Source: a virus
IMG/VR virus record: IMGVR_UViG_3300010885_015976
Location: 1 to 26,244 of that record
Length of the DNA stretch: 26,244 bases
Reading direction: 5' to 3' (one strand)
In this document: positions 260 to 19,702 of the stretch, one piece after another
How the letters are laid out: every line of letters starts with the position of its first letter
How positions within the stretch are numbered: the first letter of the stretch is position 1
Notes under the pieces: model-generated
Seen by the model: the letters and a program-made list of their open reading frames with translations, nothing else
The model's database searches: none
Told to the model about the DNA's origin: nothing
Made by a program: the position numbers and the translations under genes

Positions 260-697
260 ATGCCATTATATAAAGGTTACAGTACACAAAATTTCATTTA
301 TCAGGATGCCAACACGATCACTGGCATAAAAGAGAATTATTTCGGTCCATATTCAGTTACTGATAAGAATTTGATTATAACTGATCTACTAAATCACTTT
401 TATATTCGAAAAGGCGAAAAGTTAATGAACCCAGAATTTGGGTGCATGATATGGGATAGTCTGTTTGACCCGCTAACAATAACTTTGAAAAATGATATAG
501 TAAATGAAGTTAAAACTATTGCTACTTCAGATCCCAGGATTTCTTTGGTCAGTAAAATTTCAGTGAATGAATCTCCTGACGGAGCTGGATTATTGATAGC
601 ATTAGATATTGCATTAAAAAATAGTAATGAAGTGATAAGTTTGAATCTGGCATTTGACGGCTCGACTGGTGTGATCACAAGTACAATTGCTTATTAA
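260..697 (+). CDS. gp25: Baseplate wedge protein, gp25-like (GPW/gp25 family)
   Basis: This 145-residue protein matches the size and pattern of the gp25 family (T4 gp25 is 132 residues). In contractile tails gp25 sits in the baseplate wedge core with gp6 and is related to sheath-initiating proteins of other contractile systems. The family hallmark is the central block with RKGEKLMNPEFGCMIWD followed by SLFDPL at about residues 47-69, close to the usual 'GER..P.FG....LFEP' pattern. The C-terminal half has the expected beta-rich character. The ATG at 260 is chosen because the frame upstream of it overlaps the clearly coding C-terminus of the previous gene. There is only a weak TGGA ahead of it, so translation may be coupled to the upstream stop. 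The next gene is gp6, its known partner in the wedge. Confidence 0.9.
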   Translation: MPLYKGYSTQNFIYQDANTITGIKENYFGPYSVTDKNLIITDLLNHFYIRKGEKLMNPEFGCMIWDSLFDPLTITLKNDIVNEVKTIATSDPRISLVSKISVNESPDGAGLLIALDIALKNSNEVISLNLAFDGSTGVITSTIAY

Positions 698-766: not shown

Positions 767-3700
767 ATGGCAACATCGTCAAATAATAAGCAAACTAATT
801 TATTTGCAGTTGAGGACTGGAAGAAACTCTATACAGCCTTCACTGATGCAGACTTTCAAGCATATGATTTCGAAACTATTCGTAAGGTCATGGTTGATTA
901 TCTTCGCACATATTATGCTGAGGATTTCAATGACTTTATTGAATCGAGCGAATTCATTGCTCTACTAGATCTCATCGCGTTCCAAGCACAGAGTCTTGCA
1001 TTTCGCACCGATTTAAATGCCAGGGAGAATTTCTTAGAAACAGCAGAGCGTAAAGACAGCGTTCTAAAATTAGTTAAGCAACTAAACTATAATCCCAACC
1101 GTAATAAAGCAGCCAACGGAATTCTTAAAATTAAGAGTCTGATGACAACCGAATCTGTTTTTGATTACAGCAGCAGAAATCTTAGTAAGATCTCTGTTAA
1201 CTGGAATGATACAACTAATCCAGACTGGTTAAATCAATTCAATTTGATAGTCAATGCTTCGTTATCGAGTGGACAAAGAGTTGGTAAGGCATTTGCAAGT
1301 AAAAAAATTAACAATATTAAGACAGAGCAGTATAATATTGCTGTTCCCACAACAGTGCTTGCAGTTTTTCCATTTACTGCAACGATCAGTGACACAGTAA
1401 CTCCCTTTGAAGTTGTTGGTGCAAGCATCACTGATACAGATTCAATAACAGAAAATGATCCGGGACATTTCGGTAATTTTGGTATGATCTATCAAAATGA
1501 CAGTCGTGGAAATGCCAGCCCAAATACAGGTTACTTTCTATTTTTCAAACAAGGGCAGTTAAATGACATCAATCAAGCATTTGCAGAACGTATACCTAAT
1601 CGCATATTAAGTGTTAATTTCGATAATATTAACAACGAAGACGTTTGGTTTTATGATCTGAATAACGGACAAATTGGAGATCAGTGGACGAAGATTCCAA
1701 ATATTGTTGGAAGCAATGCTGTTTATAATAGCATTGCAAGGGGCAATAGAAAGTTATTCAGTGTTAACAGCAGAGGCACAGATCAAATTGATCTTGTGTT
1801 TGGGGATGACACGTTCTCTGAAACCCCTGTAGGTAATTTTAAAACTTATTTTAGAGTTAGCAATGGTTTGACTTACAGAATAAGTCCAGCAGACATGACT
1901 AATGTTAGCATTGTCATTCCATATATCAATAAAAATGGCAAACCTGAAAGACTTACATTGACAGCAAGTCTTCAATATACAGTATCTAATAGTAGTCGTC
2001 GAGATTTAGTTGCTGAAATTAAAAGTAAAGCACCTCAAAATTATTATACACAGGGAAGAATGGTAAACGGTGAAGATTATAATATCTTGCCATACACAAT
2101 GTTCAGTGATATCATTAAGGTAAAGAGTGTTAACAGATATAGCAGCGGTATCAGTCGTTATCTAGATATCAATGATCCAACTGGAAAATATAGTAGCACT
2201 GATCTATTTGCCAGTGACGGTGCATTTTACAAACAGAATAATCGATTGACTACAAATTTCACTTTTAATAGTCGCAACGATGTTATTCGTACGATCACTA
2301 CAACTGTGCAATCAATTCTGAACAGCAAGAGCATGAAGCATTTCTATTATGAAAATTATTCAGAATATCCATTGGTTAATTTATTATGGGCAAGAAAAAC
2401 AGACGATACATCTACCTGTACTGGATTCTTTAACTTCTCTTATAGTGTTGGCACATATCAACCGATCGGTAATGCTGCTGGCGTTCAACAGAATCTACGT
2501 TATTTGTTAACTAACTGTTTAATCAAATTTACAGCACCGTCCGGCTATTATTTTGATAGCAGCAACAGTATAATTCTAGGATCTCCAGCATTACCCAGTG
2601 ATAAAACTGAAATCTGGGCAACGATTCAGAGTCAAATCGGTGACGGTAGAACTCCTATATATCTAGCAGGTCGTACGATTGGTAGTATTACTCTCAGTGA
2701 GAACATCCCCTCAAATGCAATTGTTTCTGCGGTATACGCACCGTTTACAACAAACTTAACTAATACTTTAATAAACACGATCACAACTTACATTTTGAAT
2801 AATGTTGAATTTGCTCTTCGCTACGATACGACGCAGACACCATATGGTGAGCCATGGAAGATTATTCCAATTATCAATGTGGATCAAACCAGTGGATATA
2901 CAGCATCTACTGCTGGAACTAATAGTGATAGCAGTTGGCTATTTTTATTCACTAATGACGGAACAAAGTATACTATAACATATCGTGGTTTAGATTATAT
3001 TTTCAGTAGCACCAACAGCGTTCGTTTCTTAAACATCAATCCTGAACCTGTCTATGATGTTAAGACAAACACAATTGTCACTGACAACATCAAGATTCTA
3101 CAAAGCAACCTAGATAATACTAATACCGTTAAACTTCCTCGTCGGGTTAATCTGTCAGTATATGAAAACGAAATCGAAATCGATGGATATGTTGACAGCA
3201 CAAAAGTAAAGGTTACTTTCCCAACTGCAACACACAGCGATTTGCCTACAGATCCTGCTATTTTTAGTACCATAGTTGGAAGTTTAGATTCAACTTATGT
3301 TTTCTATAAAAAATTTATCGATTATGATAATCTAATTAGATATCAACTACTGGAAGACGGTGTTATTAATTACGTCTATCCTACTAGAATCTCGATTGAG
3401 AATGTTAGAAATAACTTTCCAAATAAAAGACTGTTCTATGCAACTAAAGAAGGGATGTTTTATGAAATCTCTTCCAACGGCGTAGCAAATACATTGGTGG
3501 ATGTCACTCAGGATTATAAATCTTTTATTGGCAGACAGTCTCTGCTATTCCAATATCGTCATAATGCAAGTGATCGTCGACGTATCGATCCTGCAACAAC
3601 TAATTTAATCGATACTTTTATCTTGACTCGTAGTTACGATGAAGCATACAGAAATTATATTAACGATTATACCGGGAAAGTTGCAGAGCCCGCAGCAGTT

Positions 3701-4168
3701 AGCAGTGTTACTTTGGCCAATACATATGGATCTCTATTAGATTTAAAAATGATCAGTGATGAAATGATTCTGAATCCAGGGGTTTATAAGCCATTATTTG
3801 GCAACAAATCAGACAGTGCATTGCAAGCAACAATTCAAATTGTTAAGAATCCTGCCAGCAATATAAGCCCTAACGAACTCAAGAGCAGAGTCATTGAACA
3901 GATCAACAGTTATTTTGCAATCGATAATTGGGATTTTGGGCAAACTTTCTACTTCAGTGAACTAAGTGCTTACTTACATAGCCAACTTGGAAATTACTTA
4001 AGCAGTGTTGTACTAGTGCCCACTTACCCTAACAGTGTATTTGGTGATCTATATGAAATAAGAAGTCAGCCCAATGAGATACTAATTAGTTCAGCAACTG
4101 TTGACAATATCGAAGTTGTTAGCGGTGTTTATATCAGCATGTCTCAGAATACTATGGTTACAATTTAA
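767..4168 (+). CDS. gp6: Baseplate wedge protein, gp6-like, enlarged
   Basis: gp6 forms the ring of wedge dimers at the core of the T4-like baseplate and joins neighbouring wedges. The N-terminal 120 residues carry the signature seen in marine T4-like gp6 proteins: FNDFIESSEFIALLDLIAF, then a segment with FRTDLNARENFLETAER and LNYNPNRN. The C-terminal region has RRRIDPATTNLIDTFILT (around residue 940) and a helix-rich, baseplate-J-like end with a 'FGQTFYFSEL' block. At 1133 residues it is much longer than T4 gp6 (660), with extra beta-rich sequence in the middle (around residues 590-860). The start is supported by AGAGG at 751-755 and by an upstream late promoter. The next gene begins 16 bases after its stop. 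The family call is secure; the role of the additional middle region is unknown. Confidence 0.92.
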   Translation: MATSSNNKQTNLFAVEDWKKLYTAFTDADFQAYDFETIRKVMVDYLRTYYAEDFNDFIESSEFIALLDLIAFQAQSLAFRTDLNARENFLETAERKDSVLKLVKQLNYNPNRNKAANGILKIKSLMTTESVFDYSSRNLSKISVNWNDTTNPDWLNQFNLIVNASLSSGQRVGKAFASKKINNIKTEQYNIAVPTTVLAVFPFTATISDTVTPFEVVGASITDTDSITENDPGHFGNFGMIYQNDSRGNASPNTGYFLFFKQGQLNDINQAFAERIPNRILSVNFDNINNEDVWFYDLNNGQIGDQWTKIPNIVGSNAVYNSIARGNRKLFSVNSRGTDQIDLVFGDDTFSETPVGNFKTYFRVSNGLTYRISPADMTNVSIVIPYINKNGKPERLTLTASLQYTVSNSSRRDLVAEIKSKAPQNYYTQGRMVNGEDYNILPYTMFSDIIKVKSVNRYSSGISRYLDINDPTGKYSSTDLFASDGAFYKQNNRLTTNFTFNSRNDVIRTITTTVQSILNSKSMKHFYYENYSEYPLVNLLWARKTDDTSTCTGFFNFSYSVGTYQPIGNAAGVQQNLRYLLTNCLIKFTAPSGYYFDSSNSIILGSPALPSDKTEIWATIQSQIGDGRTPIYLAGRTIGSITLSENIPSNAIVSAVYAPFTTNLTNTLINTITTYILNNVEFALRYDTTQTPYGEPWKIIPIINVDQTSGYTASTAGTNSDSSWLFLFTNDGTKYTITYRGLDYIFSSTNSVRFLNINPEPVYDVKTNTIVTDNIKILQSNLDNTNTVKLPRRVNLSVYENEIEIDGYVDSTKVKVTFPTATHSDLPTDPAIFSTIVGSLDSTYVFYKKFIDYDNLIRYQLLEDGVINYVYPTRISIENVRNNFPNKRLFYATKEGMFYEISSNGVANTLVDVTQDYKSFIGRQSLLFQYRHNASDRRRIDPATTNLIDTFILTRSYDEAYRNYINDYTGKVAEPAAVSSVTLANTYGSLLDLKMISDEMILNPGVYKPLFGNKSDSALQATIQIVKNPASNISPNELKSRVIEQINSYFAIDNWDFGQTFYFSELSAYLHSQLGNYLSSVVLVPTYPNSVFGDLYEIRSQPNEILISSATVDNIEVVSGVYISMSQNTMVTI

Positions 4169-4184
4169 TAGGTAAAAGATAAAA

Positions 4185-7100
4185 ATGGTTAATAAGTCTC
4201 TAGACAATGTTCCTAAGATAAATCAGAATTCTAAGAACCGTAAGGTAACATCTGATTTCCTGCCAGGTGTATTCAGAACTAATACTAATAAGCGTTTTCT
4301 AAATGCTACTATGGATCAGTTAATCCAAGAACCTAAATTAAACAATGTTTATGGCTACGTTGGAAGACAGGATCTTAGTCCAGCATATCAAACAACAGAC
4401 CCTTATGTTAGAGAGACTGATAGTTATAGTCAATTTTATCAACTTGAACCAGGTCTTGTGATCAATGAACGGATCGTTGGCACCAATCGATTTAAAAAAA
4501 CAAATGCCTTTAACTATGTTGACTTGCTCAATGGTGTTGCACTACAGGGTGGAATCAATACTAATCATAGTAGATTATTCTCTAACGAATATTACAACTA
4601 CGAAGGGTTCATCGATTTCGACAAGTTAATTAATTACAGCAAGTATTACTGGGTTCCCAATGGACCAACTACGCTTGAAGTAAATGGATATGATGTTGAC
4701 AATACAAAGCCTGATGTTGTATTCATCGAAGATTTATCCATTAGCCGCCCTGTAGATCCAGATACCACTGGTAATCTAGTATCTAATAAGCCCATTGGAC
4801 TTGTTGGATATAATATTAGTCAATTCCCAGGCAAGACAAACCCAACTCTTAATTTAGTAAGAGGCAGAACATATAATTTTAATGTTGCTCAACTTGGTCA
4901 TCCATTTTGGATTCAAACTGAACCGGGACTTGGGGAAGGTGTTGGATATCAAGAAAACATCTTTAAGAGAGAAGTATATGGAGTTGATAACAATGGTGCA
5001 GAAGAAGGTACAGTAACTTTTAGAGTACCATTCTCAGACGAGCAGTTTGATGTTGAATCGTTGCCACTATTTGATACTGTTGATCTAGTGACAGATATTC
5101 CATATAACGATATACAAAATGTTATGTATGAAGATTTTATCGCTAACAATACCATTGATGGTATGAGATCATTGACTCAAAAACGCATAGTAATGATCAA
5201 TCCAGACCCTGCTAGTTGGAGAGATGACGTACCTCTAGAACAGCGTTATGGCATCTGGCAGTTAAACAATGTTGATGGCCAACTGCGTTTAGGTTTCATT
5301 AAGGCATGGCCTAATAGCACTAAGATATTTGTTAGAGAAGGCAGACAATATGGTAACGTGAATGTTATTAGAAATAGTCACGGTTCGATATACAAAGAGC
5401 CATTCATTACTTCTAAGCTTGACACACTATACTATCAAGATGGTGTTGATGAAAATGTATACGGTGAGATACGTCTAGTAACAATCGATCCAACACAAGC
5501 AACCATTGATGTCGTACAGCGTGTGCTAGATCAACCTTCTTATACGAGTCCTAATAATGTTGAATTTACCAATGGTTTAAAAGTTATATTCAGAGGCTTC
5601 GTCGAACCCGCAGGATACGCAGATACAGAGTTTGTTGTTGAAGGTGTCGGCACAGGGATTAAATTAGTACCATGGGAAAATTTACTCACCCCTGATCCCA
5701 ACAATCCCAATCAAGGTGATGGATTTGATGCGCAGGGTGAAAATTTTGATTCACTACAGTACGATCTTGCATTAAATTCTCCTTTAAGGAAAGACTATGT
5801 TGTCATAAATCGTTCAAGCATTGACGGTAATGCATGGAGCAGAACTAACCGTTGGTTCCATGAGGACGTAATTCGTTACGCAACAACTTTTAACAATTCA
5901 ACAGCACCTGTTGTATTGGATAACGCATTTAGAGGTATTAGACCAATCATCGAGTTTGATGCCAACTTACAGTTATTCAATCATGGAAATAAATTTGCAG
6001 GTGCTGTGACTGTGATAGATTCCAAAGTCACTGATCTAGGAAACCAAGTTGAAGGTATTAGTCCATATGTACTGATTGATTCCAATGGAAACTATTACAG
6101 CGATGATGTTGCGTTAGAAAACGGAACATACGTTATCTTCACGCAGGAGAGATATCATAATACCAGAAATAAAATCTATGAAGTAAGCAACATCATCCCA
6201 CATGCTGCTAACATCAGAATCAAAACTGTGCTGAGATTTGCTCAGTTGGGATCAACTCAAATGATACTGACTGATACTGATTATCTATATGTTAATATGA
6301 AGGTAACAGGGCAAGGCGTGCCTTCTAATACAATAATTACTGCCATCGATACATTGAATAATATTGTTACTGTGAACAATGAATTAGTAGATGTTCCTGC
6401 GGGTTCGAGTGTTTCTTTTAATACTAATAATAAGCAAGTGCATCTAACACCAGTTCACACTATGCAAGAAGGTGAAACCGTTGTTGCATTAAGTGGTGCA
6501 ACTAAACAGAATTTTGTCTACTGGTGGCATAATGACAGTTGGGTCTATGCTCAACAGAAAAACAGTTTAAATCAAGCGCCGTTATTTGATATCTTTTCAA
6601 TAAGTGGAATTAGTTTCAGTAATACTGAATATTTCACAAGCAGTACATTTGCAGGTAGCAAGTTATTTGGATATAAGGAATCAACTACCGGGCTCAGAGA
6701 TAGTGAACTTGGTTTTCCATTGACTTATAGATCAATCGGAAATATCGGTGACATTGTCTTTGAAAATTTTTACGACACCGAGTCTTTTCATTATAGTTTC
6801 CTTAATAAGGACCAAACTCTTTCGATTTCAAATGGGTTTGCCCATGAGAACAATGTCAATGATCTAAGTTTTAAACTTAGAAATAATTGGATCAAAGTAC
6901 TAGATCAAAGTAAACAATACATTCAGAAGAAATATATCGTGAGTGAGAATCTACGAAATAACTTCTTGCTTAATGTTGATTATAAGATCAATAGTCAAAA
7001 CGAAAAAAATATTTTCGTTTATGTCAACGAAGTCGAATTAAGTTACAAGAAAGACTTCTCATTGATGGTACAAGGAAAGAATTATTATGTATCATTTGCT

Positions 7101-10100
7101 AAAGAATTGATTGTAGGCGATGTTCTAGTAGTTAAGATTTTTGCAAATCCCATATCTCAAGAAAACTTTACTCTGCCAAAGAATCTCACTGAGAACAGTT
7201 TAAATGAAACATTTGATTCATTGACATTGGGGCAAATAAGAAATCATGTGCAGGAAATTGCAGACAATAGTTTATATTTTGTCGGTGAGGCTGCTGGAAG
7301 CAATAATCTACGTGATATTGCATATAAACAAATTCCTGGAAGAATTTTACAGCATAGTGCTGGCGTACACGTCTCGCAGTTGTTTTTTAATAATGAAACT
7401 ACTAACGTCATCCAATCGATCGACTATAGTAGAAAAGCATATCGTAACTTCAAAGACAGATTCTTTAGCCTATTAGGTTCATCTGACTTTCAAAATACTG
7501 GAGATCCACGTGCATGTCTAGATCAGATTTTTGATGAACTTACATCACATGTAACAAGCGATCAAAGTTTCTATTATACTGATATGGTAGCTACCGGAAC
7601 TAAGAATTTCATCGTTAATCGATATACCATTTCAGATACAAACTATAGAAAATTCAACGTAATCAATCCTTTCAGTGTGGCCACTCCTGGATACGAATCG
7701 GTATTGATATATCAAAAGAAATTTAATGATATCACAGATACCAATGGCAATCAACTACTAATCAATAAAGATTATACATTCGATGGGTATGTCGTCAACA
7801 TAATCGCCAATCTAGATATTAACGACACTGTTAGCGTGTTTGAATATGCCAGCACTAAAGGCTGTACTGTTCCTGCTACTCCTACAAAATTAGGACTATA
7901 TCCAAAGTTTACACCTGAGATATTTGTGGACGATACATTCATCGGCCGTAAATTAAATGTCATCCAAGGACATGATGGCAGTAAGACTATTGCATTCAAT
8001 GATTTTAGAGATAACATAATTCTAGAATTTGAAAAAAGAGTTTATAATAATATAACAGTCAACTATATCAATGATAATACTTCTTTCACATCTATCGAGC
8101 CAGGAGCCTTCAGAGTAACTGATTATTCGATGGACGAGTGGACACTGTTACTAAGTCCTACTTTCTTAGAATGGGCTGGAAGTAATAATGTTAACATATT
8201 TGATAATTTATTTCAAAATCAAGCAACATCTAACGATCCTTTTAGTTTTAACTATTCTCAAAGCTTAGATGTTTTATATAATGATGGTGTTCCTGGTTAT
8301 TGGAGAGGTATATACAAATATTTCTTTGATACTGATCGTCCTCATACACATCCTTGGGAAATGTTTGGATTTAGTCAACAACCGGAATGGTGGGAAGCAA
8401 GATATGGTAAAGCACCATATACTTCTGGGAATTTAGTTCTATGGCAAGATGTGCAGATTGGGTTGATTTACCAACACGGGCATGATAGCTATATTGATTC
8501 TCGTTACGCCAGACCAGGAACATTAGATGTTATACCTGTAGATGAACATGGAGATTTATTACCTCCATTGAGTAGTGTAGTTACAACAGTAAAACCCAAT
8601 AATGTTGGTAGTTCATGGAGATTTGGTGATCAGAGTCCGCAGGAAACAGTGTGGCGTCGCAGCAGCGAATATCCTTATGCAATTCAAATTGCATGGGCAT
8701 TGGCTAAACCAGCACAATATTGTACTTGGTCATTGAATCGTCGCGACTATGTGCGTATCCCATTGCTTGATCAGATCATTAACAAACGTACTGGTAAAAG
8801 AGCAGTTAGTCTATCGATATCAGATGACACACAATATATTCCAGGCAGTAATATCTGGATACGTGATCGTCTAGCAGGTTTAAATGTAAACATTCAGACA
8901 AAATTTGTTGAGATATTTGAAAATCTAGGACTTAATCTTGTTTACAAGATGAGTGGTTTCACTGATAAGAGTTACATCGAAGTCATTGCAGAACAAGCAA
9001 GCCCTAACAGCACTAACACAGGTATCCTGGTTCCTAAAGAAAATTATGATCTTGTAGTTTCTAAAAGTGCTCCGGTAGGTGCTGCTACTTATAGTGCAGT
9101 TATAATAAAGAAAGCCGGCGGCATCTTTTCTATATTTGGTACTGATTTCAATCGTCCTTATTTTATCATCACTCCTCGTAGGATGAATGGAAATTTCTAT
9201 AATATTACTGTAAGCCAACAAACAGCCATGGTTAGAATGGATGATGAAGATGGCATTCAGATAATTCCATATGGGCAACAGTTCACAACAACACAACAGG
9301 TTGTTGATTTCTTAATAAGTTATGGTAGTTATTTAAAGAGCACTGGATTCTTATTTGGAGATGTAGCAAGTGGAGAATCTGAGATTGAATTTCATAATTC
9401 TACTATCGATTGGGCAAATTCTGCTAAACAATTTCTCTATTGGTTAGAACAAGGGTGGGATTCATCTATCGTTCTAAGTTTAACTCCTGCAGGAACTCAA
9501 TTAAGTTTTGACACTGGGTTTGGCGTCGTCGACGACTTAACTAATAGTTATAGTGGAGTTAGATTAACTAATTCCGACGACACTGTTTTACAGAACAAAG
9601 AATACACTACTTTTAGAAATGGTACAAACTTTAATTTAATCCTTAAGGATCCTTCTAAAGGAATTCACTTATTAGATCTTGTAGTTGTGGCATATGAACA
9701 TACATTAGTTTTTGATAACACGACAGTGTTTAATGATATCATATACAGTCCAAGCCTTGGCAATCGTCAATATAGAATGAAGATCAATGGTTTCAAGACT
9801 AGGGATTGGGATGGTAGTTTATATGCTCCAGGTTTCTTAGTAAACTTCAATGACGTTGAGTTATGGCAACCTGTAACTGATTACTATAAAGGCGACATTG
9901 TAGAATACAAGAACAAATACTATACAGCCAAAGTTTTCATACCTGGACAGAATAAGTTCATTGAAAATAATTGGATGCCAGTGAATGGCAATCTATTAAA
10001 CAAAAAACTAATACCAAATATGGCATTTAATGCTCAGCAGTTTGAAAATTTCTACGACGTAGATAAATTTGATGTTAATTCAGACGCTGATACATTAGCA

Positions 10101-13100
10101 AGAAATGCCACTGGTTTTGTTCCAAGAAATTATCTAGATGATATCGGATTAAACAACATCAGTCAACACAAATTCTATCTTGGAATGATTCGAGAAAAAG
10201 GAACTAAGGCAGCAATCAATGCCTTCCTTAGAGCAAAACTTCCATACATCGATAACAATGTAACCGTCGACGAGCAGTTTGCAATAAGATTAGGATCATA
10301 TGGCGGTTCCAACGATATCAATGATATTGAACTAAGTTTGGAAAATGCAAATCCATTGAATGGTGCGTATGTTGTTGAACTGATCAATCAAAATGATACA
10401 AGAAGCAATATGTGGAATTCATATAGACCAAAAGATCTATTAATGAAACCAGCATCATACGATAACAACATTTTCTACTCAACTGAATCATATCCGATGC
10501 AAATTGGCACAGGCGGTCCTGTATATCCATCTGACGTGACTTCATCTGTCTATGATATTCAGAAGATCTACAATCTAAGTGGTCCGTCAACTACAGATTC
10601 AACCGCTGGCTACGGCGAAGGCAGTAGAATCTGGGTAGCAAACGATACCGAAGGCACTTGGAATGTCTATAGACTAAGTGGTTTCGAGAATATCAAAATT
10701 CTAAATGCTGTTGCAATTAATACAACTTCTGAGATAGAATTCATGACTGATATCCCTCATGGATTAACTTTCAATGACAATATTCTTATCAAGAACGGTG
10801 CAACCATTGGTAAGATAGAAATGAATCTCAGTGGATTCTATAGAGTTAATAAAGTTCTTACTGCAAATACATTTAGAACTCCTATATACGACGGAGTAAA
10901 AATAGCATCGGGACCAATGCATGGTTCTCTATTGAAAATTAAATCAGTGAAGTACAATGACAGATCTTCTTTTGCGATCGATACTCCTCCAGGTGGATGG
11001 AGAACGTCTGACAGAGTTTGGATCAATGGGCTCAGTGGTAACTGGGAAGTATTAAATCGTTATGACAACTATATCATTTCTCAATCACTGACTCCTGTGT
11101 TCTCGGGCGAATCAGATAATTTTGGTAATCAGATGGATATCAAATCCACAGAAGATATCATGGTTGTAGGAGCACCTGGAAAAGATTCAGGATACGTTTA
11201 TGTTTATAATAAGGATTTAAATGCTTCTTGGGCTGTTGCTAAAGGTATCAGTCCAGCAAATTCTAATACATCGCAATTTGGTTATAGCGTAAAATACAAT
11301 GATCTAGATATTGCCATCGTTGGTGCGCCAGGCAGTAACAGTGGTGCAGGACTTGCTTATATTATCAATGCGTCGAACTACAAGATCGGTGTTAATCAAA
11401 TTTTAAATCCCACTGGTATGAGTGCCGGTGATCAATTTGGCTATGCAGTTGCGTCCAGTGTTGATGGCAACTGGATTGCAATCGGCGCTCCTGCTAATAA
11501 TAAGGTATTCATCTATAGATATACTGAAATTACTAGTCCGGTAACATATTCTTATCAAACAGAGACTGCAACCGAGTTTGAATTGCCTCAGGGTATATTA
11601 GGTACAGGACTTACTGTAGATGATATCAAGGTCTATATCAATGATGATATGAAAATTCCAACCACTGATTATTACATCAGTGGTAACAATGTGGAACTAA
11701 ACTTTACTCCTAATTACAGCGACATATTGACTATAACTTATGAAAGTTATTATCGGTATGTCACTGAGTTTTCGAATACTGAAAACAGTGGCAATTTTGG
11801 AAGCAGCTTAAGTTTCAGTAAGGATGGTTCTCAGTTGGCCATTGGCGCACCAACTTTAACTGTAGTCGATGCTAGTGGAAATTCTTACTCTAACATGGGT
11901 CAAGTTTATATCTACGAAAGAACAATCGAATCATTCATCATTCCCACATATACTGAAACATTCTTAACATCTGCACAAGCAGCAACTTTGTATTCTGTAA
12001 CATTAGATAATACTGCTGTATTTCCACTGGTATATCTAGACGGAGTATTAGATACAGAAAACACAGTACTCGATAATACTGTTACATTTATGTCAGGGGA
12101 TTTACTTCGTTTACTATCATATGGATCCCAAGTTACGGTTGAATCTAATACATTTAGATTACTAGAAACCAAAGTAATGTCAACAGGACAGAATAATTTA
12201 AATTTTGGTGCTAAGGTGCAAATATGTCCAACTACATGCAGTTTATATGTAGGCGCTCCTGGATTTGCCACTGTTAATCCTGTCACAACAGCAAGTATTA
12301 ACAGCGGTGCATTAATTCGTTATGTTAATGAAGCAAGATTTTATGGTTCTATTACAGGTAGTCAAAGTAATCCTACTACCACTGGTGGTTATAGTACTAT
12401 CATCAACGGAGTAAAGATTACATTTGATGGATCTAGTATCGATAATAGGACTATATTAGATTGGTCTCCTTATCACGACTATATCACTGATAATTGGATC
12501 AGACATAATACTATAATCTATAAGCCAACGCAGAATTTTACTAGTAGTGCAACATTCGATAGCACATATCTAACACCGTATCAGGTAACTGTCGACGAGA
12601 TTGTTTCTGACATCAATGCTGCTAGGATTCCAGGTATCACTGCCTCTAAGTCACCTAGAAATAGATTAGTAATAACTTCATCGATCGAATTAGCACATAA
12701 TAAGATCGTAATTAATACAACTAGTTTGGGCACGTTCTTAACTGATGTTGGATTAACTGTTTTCAAATATTATCAAACTATTAACTCCATAGTTGATCAA
12801 TCGACTGCAAATTTTGGAATTCAATTTGCATTGAATAATGCAGGTGATCGCTTAGTGATTGGCGCAACAACTGCTGATAATATTAAATTTGTATCCATAG
12901 ATAAAGGAACAACAACATTTGACGCTAAATCTACTAGAACATTTAGCGCATATTATAGAAGCGGTGCTGCTTATCTATACGAGTATCAAGCAGATGCAAA
13001 TGAGAATACAATACATCATGGAAACTTTGCCTATGCTCAGACATTCAACACTTCTTCACTCGTTTCCAATCAGTATTTTGGAACAGGTGTCTTATTAACA

Positions 13101-16100
13101 AATAATTGGGCAATAATTTCTTCTCTCGGCGACGGTACCAGAGCCGGAACTGTTAATACATTTTACAATAAATCAGGCACTAAAAATTGGGCAGTTCTTC
13201 GTCAGCAGTTACCAGATGTAGATTCTAGAAAGATAACACGAGCATATATCTACAATGACAACACAAAAACATTGATTGCAGATCTTCCTGTCATTGATCC
13301 AGAACACGGTATACCTGTTCCTGCTGCCGCTGAACAGATCAGATATATTTTAAATTATGATCCAGCCATCTATACAAACAGTCCTAACAAATACTCTTTT
13401 GCTGTGGATGTTAGAAGCAGTTGGTCTAAAGAACACGTTGGGCAGTTGTGGTGGGATACTAATCAAATAAAGTATACACTATGGAACCAAGGATCTCTAT
13501 TAGATAGATTTAATAATTGGGGTCTTTCGATCCCAAATAGTTTTGCAAGTGTTTACGAATGGATCGAAAGTGATATGACGCCAAGTCAGTGGAACATTGA
13601 ATATCCATTGACACCCAGTGTTTACACCGCAAGTGAAATCTATTCCACCCGAGTTGTCATTGACCCTGATACACTAGTACCTTCTAACAAATACTATTTC
13701 TGGATCATTAATAATGATTCTAATAGCAGTAAGATTAGAAGAGATACTGCACTTATGTTGCAGGAATTAATTGCAAATCCTAGAAAGAATGACAATCAAC
13801 CATTTGTCTCTGTGATTGGAACAAACGCATTGGCATTGTTCAACTGTAATGATCTAATAGACAAGGACACTCGACTGCATTTAACTCTTCAAAATAATCG
13901 ATACGTAAATCCAGTGCATAATGAATGGACAATGTTTGATGATGGTTCAGACCTAGGTGTTGCACGTGAATTCTTGGATCGTATGAATGATAGTTTAGCA
14001 GGAATTGATGCTCGCGGTAAAATGGTTCCTGATCCTGATCTCAGTATTAAAGAACGTTATGGGTTAGAAGTAAGACCAAGACAAACAACATTTGCTGATA
14101 ATTTTAATGCCAGAGGAATTTGGATCAACAATGTCAATGCTGTGTTTACTCAATATCCGATAGCACTGCTAAGAGACATGGTATCACTTGAGGAATATGA
14201 TGTTCCGCCTATCGTTGATGGGGTGGAAATTAAATTCTCAGTTGAAAACGAAATCGAATTAACATATATTAATGCTGGTTTTTATAATACCGGTGATAAG
14301 ATTCTAGTATTAAATGATTCAACTGTAAATGGATGGTCTATTAGACAACTACAATCGTCAAATTCTGTATCCGAACTTTGGAAAATCATACGGGTAAAAA
14401 CTTATGATCTTAGAAATTACTGGTCATATGCTGATTGGTATCAGAGTCCTCTGATAGCATCTGTTGCAATTGACAAGATAGTCGATTATGATTATGAAAT
14501 TCAAAGTTCAAATCCACAAGTTGGAGAATTAATTAAAGTTAAGGATGGTGGTAACGGCAATTGGAAGTTGGTGTTAGCACAGGAAAGTTCTTTCCAGTTG
14601 GTTGGTCAACAGAATGCAACCATTCAACTTAACAGAAATCTCTATGATAACAATGTTGCAGGATTTGGTGTAGACAGCCAGAGTTTTGAAATAATTGGTT
14701 TCGCTAAAGATAATGCATTGGAATTCAGAAAGATATTTGATATCGTAACAGACAAGTTATTAACAAATGAATTGCGAGACGATTTTAAAATCATTCTAAG
14801 ATCAATGCTAGATGACATTACTAATCAGTTTAAACAGAACGATTGGTTGATGAAAACTAGTTTGGTCAATGTTAACAATGAAGTTAGATCATTGAATCAA
14901 ATTCCAGTCTACGTCAAAGAAACGACTGATACTGTGTTAAATTTCTTCAATGAGGTTAAACCATATCATACAAAAGTCAAAGAATTCATCAGTTCTTATA
15001 AACAACTTGATACTGCTCAACTTGATGCAGTAGATTTCGATCTTCCACCATATTATAATCTAAATAATAAAAGATACAGAGAACCGCAGTTAGGTAACGG
15101 CATCGATGTTGTCGATGATATCAATGTATTTGATACTCCGCTTTATAATATTTGGTACAACAATCACAAATACCCAGTACAGTACATTGATATTGCTGAT
15201 GGCGGTCATGGATATAGACAAATAGATACCACTGTTGTTATTACTGGTGATGGAAAGGGTGCTACTGCACAAGCATTCATTAAAAATGGTTCTATATATG
15301 CAATCGAATTAACTAATAGTGGAAAAGATTACACTTATGCTACTGTTAAGATATTAGGTATCGGTACCGGTGCAACAGCATTTGCTAAACTTGGTCACAG
15401 CGTGGCAAGAAATATCAAAACTACAATCCGTTTCGATAGATTCACTTATGGCACTTATACTAAAGAATGGGCTCCAAACACTTCTTATACATTGACTGAT
15501 TTAATCAATTACAATGGTAACGTATATAGAATTGCAACTGATGCTAATCTACAAAATGTACAAAGCACAGGTATAACAACTGGCGATACTTTTAATTTCA
15601 CTAACTTGATCGAACTTAAAGTTAAAGTTTGGGAACCAGAAAAACCATTTACTAAAGATACTGTCATTGTTTATAAAAATATTCCTTATGTTGCACTCAC
15701 TGATTTTGTCAGTGGTAGATATTTTGAATATAATGATAATATAACAGTAACTAATAGTTTAGATTGGGAACCTGCTACTTACTATATGGCAGATACTGTA
15801 ATCAGTTACAATGGAGTTGCATATCGTGTGCTACATGATTTTACAACACCCAATTCATTCACGTATGATAACTTATTATCTGTTTATGATATTGCTATGT
15901 ATCCAGGCGGGTACTTTGACGATGCTGCCAGCCGAGTATGGAGTTACTATAATCCAGCATCTGGAATGCCAGGCAAGGACTTAACGCAAGTAATGACTGG
16001 CATGGAGTATCCTGGCGTAATTGTTAAAAGTCCAACATTTAATCAATTGATGGGATATGGGTTTGAACTGTTTGAAAGAATCGCATATGATCAGAGAACA

Positions 16101-19025
16101 TATGATGAAAACGGTCTACTAGATGTCTATGGTGATCAACAAGTCGATTCTAATATTGCTAGTTATTTCAATGATGCACAATTGGGATTACGTCCGGAAG
16201 ATATGATTTTAGATGGATCTAACTTCGTCGATACATACAGCAGTTATGCTCCTGAAGAATTCATTCCTGGAATGATGTTAGACAGCGTTGACATTAGAGT
16301 TAAGACTTTGAGTGACTATACTGTTTCTAAATCACCAGATGTTGTGGTTGTATCTAAGTATGCTGATAGTGTTACAAAAGTTTATAGTTTTGATCCAACA
16401 GTGACAGATACGAAACTGCCAACTGGCGGAATTGAAAATATCACAGTGTTGAATGATATCGCAGGTGTACAAACAGAAGGTATTGATTACACAGTGAATT
16501 GGGCACTTCGATACATCGAATTTATCAATGCTCCTCCGATACCCAGCAGTGTATACATTATAATAACAGGAGCCAGTGGTCAAAAAGTAATGGCTGATTC
16601 CGAGTTCATCGGTGATGGACAACAGACCGAGTTTGAAATATTTGACGCAGTATTAGAGAATGTTCAACAAGTCTATGTCAAGATAAACGGTAATAAAGTG
16701 ACCAATTGGAAACTTGCAGAAGCAGGTTATGGCACCACGGATCCTGCAACATTGGGTTGGGATGGTACTCCTGTAGACGGCACATATTGGGATCAATCAT
16801 ATGTTCCCGTTAGTGCAATCTGGCAACCGCTAACTGATTACTTCATTGACGATTTTGTAACCTATAATGCTGCAACATATAGAGTTGTTAGAGCATTCAG
16901 AAGTGGTGCAGAATTCAGTAACGAAAACATGATGTCATCTCAACGAGTGATTGTGAGATTTGATGGTCCGCCTGCGGCCGGTGACCTAATTCAGATCCAC
17001 TTATTTGACTTGTCTTTTTCTACTAAGGCTTACAGTGAGATAACAACCCAAGAAGTTATAGTTGGTTCAGGATATCAGTCGGGCACAGCAGGTTTTGAGA
17101 TTTCATTGAACGAGAAAGTGCAATATTCAAAACCATGGGAATCTAAGGTTAGAGTTAGCGTAAATGGGATTGATCTAGAACCTACCAATCAAGCATACTA
17201 TGCTGGTAACGGAAAAAATAAAACTTTCTCATTGCCAAACACAAGAAATGTCGATGTTAATTCAGTTACCAATTCTGATATCGTTGTGCTGATCGACGGC
17301 GTAGTTAAACTAAATCCAAGCGATTACACTGTTTATAGAAATGGCATTGATATTCCAAGTATTGTGTTCAATTCTAGCCCTGCTGATGGATCATCTATTA
17401 TAATAAGCAATAAGAGCACCTCAGATTATTTCATATTCAATGAAAGATCGATCATCATTAAACCTTCTTATCGATTGTTCCCCAACGATAAGATTGAAGT
17501 AAATGTTTACAGCAACCATGATCAGTATGATACCCGTTGTCAGGTCTTTAGTTCGTTGAACAACAACACAACTTCGATTAAGGTTGATAATTATTCCGGA
17601 TGGGATAGCATCGCGTATGATTCTATCAACTATGTCGATGAAACATTGCTCACTGGCAGTATAGGAACCGTTCCATATGCAATACATCACAGTGATCTTA
17701 AGAGCGGTTCGATCACAACTTCGACTGTTGATTATGGTTTCGCAAGCAATGTAGTAGGGTTTGACAACGCTGCGTGGGATGTAAATGAAGTAACATATGC
17801 ATCGAGTTATATACTGAACAGTCCATTGAATGGAACTCCACAGGTATCAGTCAATGGTGTGTTATTATCTATCTTGACTGACTATGTCATTGCGAACACT
17901 TCGACAATTGTTTTCAATTCTCAGGTATTGTCAACTGATGTTATTACAGTTTATGATCTCTATGACACACTGATCACAATTGTATCTTCTTATCCTACTA
18001 CTACTGCAATGGACATTTCAGCATTAAAAGTTGTAGTTGATGGAATTCAACTAAACAGATATACTGACTATACATTATCAAATGCCTATAGTCTTTCGTT
18101 TTTGAACACATTGAAAATCAGTCCATCTGCAACAATTCAAGTTTATTCATTGACTCCTGTTGTTGATCCCGCTGCTAATTTTGGTTGGGACGATGAATTT
18201 ACAATCAGCATTCAGCCTGCAGGCACAATTGTATCTCTTGGATATGATATCGTTGGATGGGACACTACCATTTGGGATAACGAACGCACAAATACTATTG
18301 CAGCCCCAACGTATGTACTAAGTAGACCAGTGAATAACATTAATAATCTGAGAGTTACATTCAATGGAGCATGGCTTCAGCCATTCTATGAATATGTTCT
18401 AATAACTCCCACAGTGCTAAGAATTGATCCAGCACTGGGTGTAACTTCTGCAGACGTAGTTGTTGTGACACATATCAATGAAGATGCAAGACAACAAAAC
18501 ATCGAATTCAGAATCTTCAAAGGTATCACTGAAACATACGATTACTTGGGTATCAGTGATAGAACTACTACATTATTAACTCAAGATTTACTACAAAATG
18601 ATGAGTGGATTAATGTTAAAGATACCGCAGTGTTTAGTTTTCCCGATCCCGAACAGTCTAAACCAGGTGTTGTTTTCATCAATGGGGAAAGAATTACTTT
18701 CTATGTATTAGATATTGTAAACAATCGTCTAGGTCAGTTACGTCGTGGAACCAACGGAACGGGTGCTCCACTAGTACATGCTGCTGGACTAAGAGTATAT
18801 GATGGTGGCAATCTAGTAGAAATTCCAAGCGCAAGAGACAAGTATGTTATTGCTGATGTTCCTGTAACTATAATAGGAAAGATGGGAGATCAGCGTACTA
18901 TCGACATTGGAAAACTTTATCGTCAAGGTAAGGTTTGGGAAAACTTAGGTGTTAGCACTCCATCAGATGGAACGGGTATATTAAATTCTACTACAGTACA
19001 AGCAACCTTCTTAAAGGCATTATAA
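4185..19025 (+). CDS. Giant 4946-residue modular baseplate/tail structural protein
   Basis: One open frame of 14.8 kb follows gp6, where T4 has genes 7 and 8; marine T4-like phages often carry a very large structural protein here (sometimes labelled VrlC-like). No interruption is present. Modules seen, by approximate residue: conserved marine-phage blocks at 1-1450, including RSSIDGNAWSRTNRWFH (about 545) and HPWEMFGFSQQPEWW (about 1390); a 'GQGVPSNTIITAI' unit (about 710); a CBM5/12-like unit (1894-1935); a 'PHGL' unit (about 2190); seven FG-GAP repeats (2312-2995); a GQLWWDT block (3086); GGxGY repeats (3672-3745); four more CBM-like units (3762-3910, 4213-4250); beta-sandwich repeats (about 4100-4770); and a C-terminal domain with PGVVFINGERITFY and LRRGTNGT (4785-4880). 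No signal peptide or membrane segment is evident. AGG at 4170-4172 precedes the ATG. Most likely it builds the outer baseplate and host-contact surface; the exact role is inferred. Confidence 0.85.
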   Translation: MVNKSLDNVPKINQNSKNRKVTSDFLPGVFRTNTNKRFLNATMDQLIQEPKLNNVYGYVGRQDLSPAYQTTDPYVRETDSYSQFYQLEPGLVINERIVGTNRFKKTNAFNYVDLLNGVALQGGINTNHSRLFSNEYYNYEGFIDFDKLINYSKYYWVPNGPTTLEVNGYDVDNTKPDVVFIEDLSISRPVDPDTTGNLVSNKPIGLVGYNISQFPGKTNPTLNLVRGRTYNFNVAQLGHPFWIQTEPGLGEGVGYQENIFKREVYGVDNNGAEEGTVTFRVPFSDEQFDVESLPLFDTVDLVTDIPYNDIQNVMYEDFIANNTIDGMRSLTQKRIVMINPDPASWRDDVPLEQRYGIWQLNNVDGQLRLGFIKAWPNSTKIFVREGRQYGNVNVIRNSHGSIYKEPFITSKLDTLYYQDGVDENVYGEIRLVTIDPTQATIDVVQRVLDQPSYTSPNNVEFTNGLKVIFRGFVEPAGYADTEFVVEGVGTGIKLVPWENLLTPDPNNPNQGDGFDAQGENFDSLQYDLALNSPLRKDYVVINRSSIDGNAWSRTNRWFHEDVIRYATTFNNSTAPVVLDNAFRGIRPIIEFDANLQLFNHGNKFAGAVTVIDSKVTDLGNQVEGISPYVLIDSNGNYYSDDVALENGTYVIFTQERYHNTRNKIYEVSNIIPHAANIRIKTVLRFAQLGSTQMILTDTDYLYVNMKVTGQGVPSNTIITAIDTLNNIVTVNNELVDVPAGSSVSFNTNNKQVHLTPVHTMQEGETVVALSGATKQNFVYWWHNDSWVYAQQKNSLNQAPLFDIFSISGISFSNTEYFTSSTFAGSKLFGYKESTTGLRDSELGFPLTYRSIGNIGDIVFENFYDTESFHYSFLNKDQTLSISNGFAHENNVNDLSFKLRNNWIKVLDQSKQYIQKKYIVSENLRNNFLLNVDYKINSQNEKNIFVYVNEVELSYKKDFSLMVQGKNYYVSFAKELIVGDVLVVKIFANPISQENFTLPKNLTENSLNETFDSLTLGQIRNHVQEIADNSLYFVGEAAGSNNLRDIAYKQIPGRILQHSAGVHVSQLFFNNETTNVIQSIDYSRKAYRNFKDRFFSLLGSSDFQNTGDPRACLDQIFDELTSHVTSDQSFYYTDMVATGTKNFIVNRYTISDTNYRKFNVINPFSVATPGYESVLIYQKKFNDITDTNGNQLLINKDYTFDGYVVNIIANLDINDTVSVFEYASTKGCTVPATPTKLGLYPKFTPEIFVDDTFIGRKLNVIQGHDGSKTIAFNDFRDNIILEFEKRVYNNITVNYINDNTSFTSIEPGAFRVTDYSMDEWTLLLSPTFLEWAGSNNVNIFDNLFQNQATSNDPFSFNYSQSLDVLYNDGVPGYWRGIYKYFFDTDRPHTHPWEMFGFSQQPEWWEARYGKAPYTSGNLVLWQDVQIGLIYQHGHDSYIDSRYARPGTLDVIPVDEHGDLLPPLSSVVTTVKPNNVGSSWRFGDQSPQETVWRRSSEYPYAIQIAWALAKPAQYCTWSLNRRDYVRIPLLDQIINKRTGKRAVSLSISDDTQYIPGSNIWIRDRLAGLNVNIQTKFVEIFENLGLNLVYKMSGFTDKSYIEVIAEQASPNSTNTGILVPKENYDLVVSKSAPVGAATYSAVIIKKAGGIFSIFGTDFNRPYFIITPRRMNGNFYNITVSQQTAMVRMDDEDGIQIIPYGQQFTTTQQVVDFLISYGSYLKSTGFLFGDVASGESEIEFHNSTIDWANSAKQFLYWLEQGWDSSIVLSLTPAGTQLSFDTGFGVVDDLTNSYSGVRLTNSDDTVLQNKEYTTFRNGTNFNLILKDPSKGIHLLDLVVVAYEHTLVFDNTTVFNDIIYSPSLGNRQYRMKINGFKTRDWDGSLYAPGFLVNFNDVELWQPVTDYYKGDIVEYKNKYYTAKVFIPGQNKFIENNWMPVNGNLLNKKLIPNMAFNAQQFENFYDVDKFDVNSDADTLARNATGFVPRNYLDDIGLNNISQHKFYLGMIREKGTKAAINAFLRAKLPYIDNNVTVDEQFAIRLGSYGGSNDINDIELSLENANPLNGAYVVELINQNDTRSNMWNSYRPKDLLMKPASYDNNIFYSTESYPMQIGTGGPVYPSDVTSSVYDIQKIYNLSGPSTTDSTAGYGEGSRIWVANDTEGTWNVYRLSGFENIKILNAVAINTTSEIEFMTDIPHGLTFNDNILIKNGATIGKIEMNLSGFYRVNKVLTANTFRTPIYDGVKIASGPMHGSLLKIKSVKYNDRSSFAIDTPPGGWRTSDRVWINGLSGNWEVLNRYDNYIISQSLTPVFSGESDNFGNQMDIKSTEDIMVVGAPGKDSGYVYVYNKDLNASWAVAKGISPANSNTSQFGYSVKYNDLDIAIVGAPGSNSGAGLAYIINASNYKIGVNQILNPTGMSAGDQFGYAVASSVDGNWIAIGAPANNKVFIYRYTEITSPVTYSYQTETATEFELPQGILGTGLTVDDIKVYINDDMKIPTTDYYISGNNVELNFTPNYSDILTITYESYYRYVTEFSNTENSGNFGSSLSFSKDGSQLAIGAPTLTVVDASGNSYSNMGQVYIYERTIESFIIPTYTETFLTSAQAATLYSVTLDNTAVFPLVYLDGVLDTENTVLDNTVTFMSGDLLRLLSYGSQVTVESNTFRLLETKVMSTGQNNLNFGAKVQICPTTCSLYVGAPGFATVNPVTTASINSGALIRYVNEARFYGSITGSQSNPTTTGGYSTIINGVKITFDGSSIDNRTILDWSPYHDYITDNWIRHNTIIYKPTQNFTSSATFDSTYLTPYQVTVDEIVSDINAARIPGITASKSPRNRLVITSSIELAHNKIVINTTSLGTFLTDVGLTVFKYYQTINSIVDQSTANFGIQFALNNAGDRLVIGATTADNIKFVSIDKGTTTFDAKSTRTFSAYYRSGAAYLYEYQADANENTIHHGNFAYAQTFNTSSLVSNQYFGTGVLLTNNWAIISSLGDGTRAGTVNTFYNKSGTKNWAVLRQQLPDVDSRKITRAYIYNDNTKTLIADLPVIDPEHGIPVPAAAEQIRYILNYDPAIYTNSPNKYSFAVDVRSSWSKEHVGQLWWDTNQIKYTLWNQGSLLDRFNNWGLSIPNSFASVYEWIESDMTPSQWNIEYPLTPSVYTASEIYSTRVVIDPDTLVPSNKYYFWIINNDSNSSKIRRDTALMLQELIANPRKNDNQPFVSVIGTNALALFNCNDLIDKDTRLHLTLQNNRYVNPVHNEWTMFDDGSDLGVAREFLDRMNDSLAGIDARGKMVPDPDLSIKERYGLEVRPRQTTFADNFNARGIWINNVNAVFTQYPIALLRDMVSLEEYDVPPIVDGVEIKFSVENEIELTYINAGFYNTGDKILVLNDSTVNGWSIRQLQSSNSVSELWKIIRVKTYDLRNYWSYADWYQSPLIASVAIDKIVDYDYEIQSSNPQVGELIKVKDGGNGNWKLVLAQESSFQLVGQQNATIQLNRNLYDNNVAGFGVDSQSFEIIGFAKDNALEFRKIFDIVTDKLLTNELRDDFKIILRSMLDDITNQFKQNDWLMKTSLVNVNNEVRSLNQIPVYVKETTDTVLNFFNEVKPYHTKVKEFISSYKQLDTAQLDAVDFDLPPYYNLNNKRYREPQLGNGIDVVDDINVFDTPLYNIWYNNHKYPVQYIDIADGGHGYRQIDTTVVITGDGKGATAQAFIKNGSIYAIELTNSGKDYTYATVKILGIGTGATAFAKLGHSVARNIKTTIRFDRFTYGTYTKEWAPNTSYTLTDLINYNGNVYRIATDANLQNVQSTGITTGDTFNFTNLIELKVKVWEPEKPFTKDTVIVYKNIPYVALTDFVSGRYFEYNDNITVTNSLDWEPATYYMADTVISYNGVAYRVLHDFTTPNSFTYDNLLSVYDIAMYPGGYFDDAASRVWSYYNPASGMPGKDLTQVMTGMEYPGVIVKSPTFNQLMGYGFELFERIAYDQRTYDENGLLDVYGDQQVDSNIASYFNDAQLGLRPEDMILDGSNFVDTYSSYAPEEFIPGMMLDSVDIRVKTLSDYTVSKSPDVVVVSKYADSVTKVYSFDPTVTDTKLPTGGIENITVLNDIAGVQTEGIDYTVNWALRYIEFINAPPIPSSVYIIITGASGQKVMADSEFIGDGQQTEFEIFDAVLENVQQVYVKINGNKVTNWKLAEAGYGTTDPATLGWDGTPVDGTYWDQSYVPVSAIWQPLTDYFIDDFVTYNAATYRVVRAFRSGAEFSNENMMSSQRVIVRFDGPPAAGDLIQIHLFDLSFSTKAYSEITTQEVIVGSGYQSGTAGFEISLNEKVQYSKPWESKVRVSVNGIDLEPTNQAYYAGNGKNKTFSLPNTRNVDVNSVTNSDIVVLIDGVVKLNPSDYTVYRNGIDIPSIVFNSSPADGSSIIISNKSTSDYFIFNERSIIIKPSYRLFPNDKIEVNVYSNHDQYDTRCQVFSSLNNNTTSIKVDNYSGWDSIAYDSINYVDETLLTGSIGTVPYAIHHSDLKSGSITTSTVDYGFASNVVGFDNAAWDVNEVTYASSYILNSPLNGTPQVSVNGVLLSILTDYVIANTSTIVFNSQVLSTDVITVYDLYDTLITIVSSYPTTTAMDISALKVVVDGIQLNRYTDYTLSNAYSLSFLNTLKISPSATIQVYSLTPVVDPAANFGWDDEFTISIQPAGTIVSLGYDIVGWDTTIWDNERTNTIAAPTYVLSRPVNNINNLRVTFNGAWLQPFYEYVLITPTVLRIDPALGVTSADVVVVTHINEDARQQNIEFRIFKGITETYDYLGISDRTTTLLTQDLLQNDEWINVKDTAVFSFPDPEQSKPGVVFINGERITFYVLDIVNNRLGQLRRGTNGTGAPLVHAAGLRVYDGGNLVEIPSARDKYVIADVPVTIIGKMGDQRTIDIGKLYRQGKVWENLGVSTPSDGTGILNSTTVQATFLKAL
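9858..9989 (+). other. CBM5/12-like module 1 inside the giant protein
   Basis: Residues about 1892-1935 read WQPVTDYYKGDIVEYKNKYY, followed by a short segment and a closing Trp (NNWMPV). The order W-x-P, Y-x-x-GD-x-V-x-Y, Y-x-A and final W is the usual pattern of small chitin/cellulose-binding (carbohydrate-binding family 5/12) modules. Sugar binding is inferred; the fold also serves as a structural unit in phage tails. Confidence 0.6.
11118..13170 (+). other. Seven-repeat FG-GAP (integrin-type) beta-propeller domain with inserts
   Basis: Seven FG-GAP-type repeats start at residues of about 2312, 2364, 2417, 2537, 2673, 2876 and 2964. Clear examples are QFGYSVKYNDLDIAIVGAPG and DQFGYAVASS followed by NWIAIGAP. 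Repeats 5 to 7 are more divergent (VGAPGF, VIGATT, IISSLG). Seven is the number needed to close an integrin-type propeller. Long inserts follow repeats 3, 4 and 5; the first resembles the beta-sandwich repeats found later in the same protein (KVYINDDMKI, then ELNFTP). Confidence 0.75.
15198..15400 (+). repeat. GGxGY glycine-rich beta repeats in the giant protein
   Basis: Residues about 3672-3740 contain two related units: DGGHGYRQIDTTVVITGDGK with GATAQAFIKNG, then NSGKDYTYATVKILGIG with TGATAFAKLG. The alternation of GY, a V/I-rich strand and G-x-GA is a repeat I recall from fiber and baseplate proteins of marine phages. A structural spacer role is inferred. Confidence 0.6.
15462..15900 (+). 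other. Three consecutive CBM5/12-like modules (2-4) in the giant protein
   Basis: Three units begin at Trp residues 3762 (EWAPNTSYTLTDLINYNGNV), 3816 (WEPEKPFTKDTVIVYKN) and 3861 (DWEPATYYMADTVISYNGVA). Each has W-x-P, an aromatic, D-x-(V/L)-x-x-Y and a Tyr-containing strand. They follow directly on the GGxGY repeats. Spacing is 54 and 45 residues, consistent with tandem small domains. Confidence 0.6.
16815..16935 (+). other. CBM5/12-like module 5 in the giant protein
   Basis: A fifth unit begins at Trp 4213 (IWQPLTDYFIDDFVTYNAAT, then YRVVRAF). It is embedded among the beta-sandwich repeats, separated from modules 2-4 by about 350 residues. Confidence 0.55.
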
Positions 19026-19702
19026 TGGAAGACAAAAACACGTCAGAATCTAAGGTAATAAATAAAGAGCAGCAAGAGAAAAATCCAATGTCTAAACCAG
19101 ATGAGAATAGCGGAATTAGGGTTGAAGGCCATATTAAGATATGGGATCCTAGTTCTGGAGAAGTGATCGTTAATAAGCGTAATGCCATTCATTATGAGAA
19201 TTTTAGTAAAGCATTGGCAATGAGCATTGGAAATCAACAAGAAAGTTGGATCCATGAGATGGTTTTTGGGAACGGTGGTACTAGTGTTGACCCTACTGGG
19301 GTTGTTACTTATTTGCCAACTAATACCACTGGAAGTAACTCCGCACTTTATAACCAAACTTATAATAAAGTGATTGACGGAAACAGTAGTTATAACATGG
19401 ATCCTACTAGAAACATGATTCAAGTTCGACATGTTCCGGGAACACTGTATACCGATGTATTAATGACTTGCTTGCTAGATTATGGCGAGCCAAATGATCA
19501 AGCCGCATTTGATAATAGCACTACCTATGGTGATAATTATGTATTTGATGAATTGGGACTTAAGAGTTTCTCATTGAACGGCATTAATCAGGGTGATCTT
19601 TTAACTCACGTTATCTTCCACCCAGTTCAGAAATCATTAAACAGACTCATTCAAATTGATTATACAGTTAGAATTCAAACTTTAACAACACTAACTGCAT
19701 AA
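19025..19702 (+). CDS. Conserved structural-region protein coupled to the giant gene
   Basis: This 225-residue protein starts in a TAATG that overlaps the stop of the giant gene by one base, with AAAGG at 19013-19017 ahead of it; this argues for translational coupling and a shared transcript. The first 25 residues are hydrophilic and charged, followed by a compact region with GHIKIWDPSSGEVIVNKRNA, then MVFGNGGTSVDP and a beta-rich end. I recall this 'dG.vl..k.NAIHYEN' arrangement from marine myovirus structural clusters, usually unnamed. No transmembrane segment or enzyme motif is visible. A baseplate or fiber-attachment component is the best guess from position; a divergent gp8 counterpart is possible but cannot be shown here. 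A second ATG at 19089 has a poorer ribosome-binding site. Confidence 0.75.
   Translation: MEDKNTSESKVINKEQQEKNPMSKPDENSGIRVEGHIKIWDPSSGEVIVNKRNAIHYENFSKALAMSIGNQQESWIHEMVFGNGGTSVDPTGVVTYLPTNTTGSNSALYNQTYNKVIDGNSSYNMDPTRNMIQVRHVPGTLYTDVLMTCLLDYGEPNDQAAFDNSTTYGDNYVFDELGLKSFSLNGINQGDLLTHVIFHPVQKSLNRLIQIDYTVRIQTLTTLTA

Follow-up and report, generated by a model that had tools for sequence, protein, structure and literature searches.

The wedge scaffold of contractile tails is a (gp6)2-gp7 module that is conserved from pyocins to T4 (PMC10457771), and in the T4 gene order gp7 follows gp6. In several jumbo phages this position is taken by members of the family phrog_10938, single chains of more than 3,000 residues encoded directly 3' of gp6 in PA5oct (3857 aa), Phosso (4555 aa), Atu_ph07 (4449 aa), GAP32 (3341 aa) and PBECO4. 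Phage SCTP-2 is the exception, with its homolog located ~92 kb away from gp6; the upstream neighbor of the SCTP-2 giant is a 3096-aa beta-propeller repeat protein (phrog_8401; L006:2624-11914), not gp6. The PHROGs category of phrog_10938 is "head and packaging", yet the position beside gp6 points to the tail baseplate.

The PA5oct gp355 record carries an ESI-MS/MS annotation. Mass spectrometry of the phAPEC6 virion identified gp245 (382 kDa, 17 unique peptides), whose number adjoins that of the baseplate wedge protein gp244 (PMC7247149), and in the CBB virion it identified CBB_236 (21 peptides), which adjoins the gp6 protein CBB_237 (PMC5259590). Judging from position and size, we read both proteins as homologs of the giant described here. 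Virion association is reported for the relatives tested; this giant is known from a virus contig.

The giant gene and its family

The stretch of DNA analyzed (the window, 26,244 bases) is identical to its source record, IMGVR_UViG_3300010885_015976. Its first three genes are as follows:

260..697, + strand: gp25-like sheath initiator, 145 aa (PF04965, E 4.3e-8; homolog of 145 aa in contig G002)
767..4168, + strand: gp6-like baseplate wedge subunit, 1133 aa (phrog_10646, E 3.5e-280)
4185..19025, + strand: giant of 4946 aa, a virion structural protein of the phrog_10938 family that occupies the gene-7 slot behind gp6

The true start of gp25 is probably the ATG at 260 and not the listed frame start at 110 (110-697), since the G002 homolog is 145 aa long. 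The initial annotation had described one uninterrupted frame right behind gp6, and this is borne out in both coordinates and length: the frame at 4185-19025 runs for 4946 codons from ATG to TAA with zero internal stops. That annotation had also named an assembly fusion as one of two findings that would overturn it, the other being separate gp7 and gp8 homologs elsewhere in the genome. A fusion, or a mis-called frame uniting several genes, is recommended by the exceptional length of the frame and by nothing else, and we give it practically no credence. The independent contig G002 carries a giant of 4978 aa, 67% identical to that of the window, in the same gene order: gp25 (145 aa), gp6 (1132 aa), the giant and matching downstream genes. 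Comparison of the two giants gives an overall dN of 0.25 and dS of 2.6; in 450-codon bins dS is at least 1.5 throughout, with many bins saturated, while dN peaks at 0.38 (residues 2251-2700), such that dN/dS is low over the entire length. A BLASTP search against the frames of retrieved loci found a homologous frame in all 39 (L002-L040), those complete within their loci being 3105-4555 aa. The shared order, the full-length G002 homolog and a dN of 0.25 against near-saturated dS thus show that this is not an assembly fusion, a conclusion to which the 39 homologous loci also contribute, and the window giant is a real single gene.

The sole strong PHROG match of the giant is phrog_10938 (E 9.1e-287, in five stretches, on a profile of 3324 positions), which was matched by 11/11 members of the test alignment. 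Similarity to this profile extends across the scaffold, and the family members PA5oct gp355, Atu_ph07 gp180 and GAP32_230 are homologous to the giant across the scaffold and have the same position after gp6. The giant is therefore a long representative of an already known family of very large jumbo-phage baseplate proteins and not a new system. It is longer than its homologs in jumbo-phage isolates (4946 aa versus ~3.3-4.6 kaa) because of extra inserts at residues 151-450, 2100-3000 and 3600-4800.

Conserved scaffold and variable inserts

An occupancy map drawn from an alignment of 40 sequences shows a conserved scaffold of ~2.3 kaa broken up by variable inserts. Residues 1-150, 451-675, 751-2060 and 3001-3600 are well occupied, as is a shorter block at 4801-4875; residues 151-450, 676-750, 1876-1950, ~2100-3000 and 3600-4800 are poorly occupied. 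The parts of the giant are:

4185..4634, + strand: conserved N-terminal block, residues 1-150; occupancy ~0.93 in homologs spanning the block
4635..5534, + strand: variable insertion, residues 151-450; occupancy ~0.15
5535..6209, + strand: conserved scaffold block, residues 451-675; occupancy 0.73-0.91
6435..10364, + strand: main conserved scaffold, residues 751-2060; occupancy mostly 0.8-1.0 except at the CBM insert; invariant columns
9849..9986, + strand: CBM5/12-type domain in the scaffold, residues 1889-1934, from a predicted-structure match
11142..13154, + strand: FG-GAP beta-propeller region, residues ~2320-2990; variable between relatives
13185..14984, + strand: second conserved scaffold block, residues 3001-3600; occupancy 0.67-0.98; invariant columns
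14985..18584, + strand: variable decoration region, residues 3601-4800; occupancy mostly 0.1-0.5
15177..15380, + strand: glycine-rich decoration module, residues 3665-3732 (phrog_438 positions 198-267, E 1.4e-9)
15465..16904, + strand: CBM_5_12-like units at residues 3761, 3861 and 4213 (PF02839 slices, E 4.3e-9 and 0.01)
18543..18815, + strand: C-terminal module, residues ~4787-4877, GERI..LRRGTNGT..H..G; matches S-PM2p081

The N-terminal block bears the motif LPxxFRTxxNxKFLxATxxQL, with L26, P27, F38, G60, Y85 and Q86 invariant. A near-invariant RPHTHPWEMFG lies at about residues 1385-1395, inside the main scaffold, and the second scaffold block contains the motif NEVKPYHTK.

The modules described in the initial annotation were verified in part. 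The Pfam match to CBM_5_12 (E 1.8e-13; 50.7 bits against a cut-off of 26.2) and that to FG-GAP_2 (E 2e-10; 41.1 bits against a cut-off of 23) both exceed their cut-offs, and the glycine-rich module, of which the cyanophage giants discussed below hold many copies, matches phrog_438. In slices, FG-GAP_2 was matched at E 7.7e-13 and 0.001, with six GAP-type motifs present; a motif scan added further CBM_5_12 motif matches at residues 1894 and 2760, and a module at residues 217-284 matches phrog_677 positions 329-387 (E 1.7e-6). The C-terminal module has a profile match to residues 59-155 of S-PM2p081 (P 5.9e-8), and a second match to that protein (E 1.6e-12) shows copies at 66-123 and 2872-2956. 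The predicted model of the CBM at 1889-1934 matches a baseplate/receptor-binding entry of phage Milano (chain 8fqc_P1; Z 7.8, rmsd 1.0 over 45 residues), as well as chitinase CBMs.

Structure models of two scaffold portions, residues 1205-2060 and 3000-3670, reached modest confidence (pLDDT 64.6, with the final 34 residues below 50, and 61.0, respectively), and Foldseek searches of the PDB with either returned nothing at E 0.001. Compared with solved structures, the model of 1205-2060 matched CBM and Ig-like folds only among the matches listed, and the absence of a gp7 or TriB chain from that list, for a model of modest confidence, neither shows nor excludes the fold; the model of 3000-3670 had no meaningful structural match. 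In BFVD, the 1205-2060 model resembles phage giants, for example those of Atu_ph07 and uncultured Caudovirales, predicted similarities that restate family membership.

Relationship to gp7 and gp8

A comparison of the giant with T4 gp7 and the TriB proteins directs attention to one region of the main scaffold:

10035..10319, + strand: residues 1951-2045, FYLGMIREKGTKAAINAFLR, with a KGT motif resembling that of gp7/TriB; candidate gp6-binding core

The giant is encoded directly 3' of gp6, the position after gp6/TriA that it has in common with T4 gp7, P2 gpI and XM1 gp17, and possibly shares a KG[TI] motif with them. It has no significant sequence match to these three proteins, is ~5-30 times longer and, unlike them, is decorated with CBM and propeller modules. 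The region near residue 2000, FYLGMIREKGTKAAINAFLR, resembles FYSTKGIEASYKFLFK of T4 gp7 and CHKGTIGAIRRVVE of P2 gpI, and the KGT motif was the best placement against T4 gp7 (hhalign P 0.4), P2 gpI (hhalign P 0.14) and S-PM2p081 (hmmsearch E 0.74), none of these values being significant. Against a combined T4 and cyanophage gp7 profile, the KGT slices 1886-2016 and 1951-2081 ranked first and second of 75, with P values of 0.017 and 0.024 that are uncorrected for the 75 slices. When hhalign was run against the cyanophage profile alone the KGT motif was not picked, and Pfam and PDB sequence searches with the KGT region gave no relevant match. These results suggest homology of the giant to gp7 and do not prove it.

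The gp7 profile phrog_964 had no match in eleven jumbo relatives (five complete isolate genomes, the rest contigs), and gp53 (PF11246) was found, weakly, in 8/8 jumbo relatives searched for it. The initial annotation placed the giant in place of genes 7 and 8. With no gp7 detected in the eleven relatives and a weak KGT match, the gp7 part of that proposal is plausible, and the giant probably replaces the wedge protein gp7; the gp8 part did not hold up, as discussed below. Gene 240 of SCTP-2, which directly follows gp6, was considered as a separate gp7 and ruled out, being a sheath stabilizer. The P2 gpI profile PF09684 was uninformative as a gp7 detector, as it matched P2 only and missed T4 gp7 too. 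T4 gp7 weakly touched phrog_2885 (4179 positions).

Two cyanophages also encode a giant directly after gp6, S-PM2p081 in S-PM2 (3048 aa; L069:9073-18219) and Syn33_092 in Syn33 (6376 aa; L070:8720-27850). The window giant is very long, as the initial annotation noted in ranking it among the largest phage structural proteins, but Syn33_092 is longer in the same gene position. The cyanophage giants share the glycine-rich decoration module with the window giant, and that of S-PM2 also the GERI/RGTNGT C-terminal module; homology between their scaffold core and that of the window giant is not detectable. A further difference is that the cyanophages encode gp8 separately and that the T4 gp7 signature of their giants is clearer, as seen in the match of these giants to T4 gp7 (hhalign P 4.3e-5) and of phrog_964 to Syn33_092 (E 2.2e-5). 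Both proteins are annotated merely as hypothetical or virion structural proteins despite this signature. A 2010 comparison assigned gp7 to the non-cyanophage core (PMC3037559); given the T4 gp7-like signature in S-PM2p081 and Syn33_092, a gp7 is probably present in cyanophages as well.

The giant spans the T4 gene interval that includes gp8, but the gp8 core profiles (phrog_977, and phrog_438 positions 1-90 and 441-478) do not match it. These profiles match T4 and the cyanophages and none of the jumbo relatives, bar a weak partial match of phrog_977 to a 128-aa frame of Atu_ph07 (E 0.008), an absence compatible with a diverged gp8; as the window record is 26 kb, gp7 and gp8 were searched for in the genomes of relatives. 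A gp8 within the giant was rejected, as the phrog_438 matches are confined to the decoration module (positions ~163-301), which is present in many copies in the cyanophage giants. The replacement of gp8 by the giant is thus unsupported: no gp8 core is found inside it, and cyanophages with a giant after gp6 retain a separate gp8.

Our favored reading, to which we assign a probability of roughly 60%, is that the giant is a phrog_10938-family jumbo-phage baseplate wedge protein, a gp7-position scaffold with host-contact inserts. For the ~2.3-kaa scaffold (residues 1-150, 451-675, 751-2060 and 3001-3600), which lies at the gp7 (TriB) position, the probable partner is the gp6 dimer, contacted by the KGT-motif region around residue 2000. 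The CBM5/12 units, FG-GAP propeller, glycine-rich modules and C-terminal beta module would project as the wedge periphery, where the variable inserts probably contact surface polysaccharides or carry fibers. The single gene, its conserved position, its family membership and the pattern of scaffold and inserts are established, and the gp7 function, the gp6 contact and the host-surface contact are inferred. Position and architecture fit the proposal, made in the initial annotation, of a wedge scaffold combined with a host-contact surface, in that a scaffold with carbohydrate-binding and propeller inserts lies beside gp6 and its relatives are detected in virions. Our reading gains from the resemblance of the CBM fold to a baseplate/receptor-binding entry of a phage, from the top ranks of the KGT slices and from the T4 gp7 signature of the cyanophage giants at this gene position. 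Counting against it are the lack of significance of every single gp7 test, the modest confidence of the predicted structure, which matched solved structures in the CBM and Ig-like parts only, and the ~92 kb between the SCTP-2 homolog and gp6.

A possible, less favored alternative is that the giant is a peripheral baseplate protein or adhesin merely attached to the wedge, the true gp7 being small, diverged, located elsewhere and missed by profiles. TriB proteins can indeed be small and diverged, XM1 gp17 being 242 aa (PMC10457771), profile sensitivity is poor since PF09684 fails even on T4 gp7, and many of the modules of the giant resemble host-contact modules. Conservation, however, is highest in the large scaffold blocks and not in the adhesin-like modules, in every isolate seen but SCTP-2 the frame is directly 3' of gp6, and in SCTP-2 the gene following gp6 is the sheath stabilizer and not gp7. 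It is unlikely that in this lineage a single chain took on the gp7, gp8 and peripheral host-contact roles, leaving a wedge of essentially gp6, gp25, gp53 and the ~550 kDa giant; a chain fusing the functions of gp7, gp8 and possibly gp10, in a wedge of gp6, gp25, gp53 and the giant, appears more doubtful still. The failure to find gp8 core positions in the jumbo relatives would leave room for a gp8 role in the giant, but no giant has a gp8 core match, phrog_438 matches the decoration module only, and gp8 remains a separate protein in those cyanophages whose gp6 is followed by a giant.

If the wedge-protein reading is correct, jumbo phages build a T4-like contractile baseplate without a recognizable gp7 or gp8, by means of a giant gp7-position protein that also bears carbohydrate-binding modules. 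The isolates PA5oct, PBECO4, 121Q, phAPEC6 and CBB make the wedge organization of these phages directly testable, and to this family the window contributes one long member with a clear map of scaffold and inserts.

Genes downstream of the giant

The TAA of the giant shares one base (19025) with the ATG of the next gene, 19025-19702, which is 86% identical to its G002 counterpart and belongs to phrog_11259, of unknown function; because of the one-base overlap and its good conservation, this gene may encode a partner of the giant. The adjoining genes 19743-20651 and 20699-21715 carry a common N-terminal domain of ~80-110 residues, 38-43% identical in cross-matches; their C-terminal parts are dissimilar, one being weakly C1q-like. 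The G002 counterpart of 20699-21715 is 700 aa long, compared to 338 aa in the window. This arrangement suggests exchanged adhesin tips on a shared anchor. The region 23016-26242 holds genes that we read as glycosyltransferase-looking, followed by a cut radical-SAM-like frame, with no Pfam or PDB match backing a name for the genes in this interval; in G002, additional related frames follow one another.
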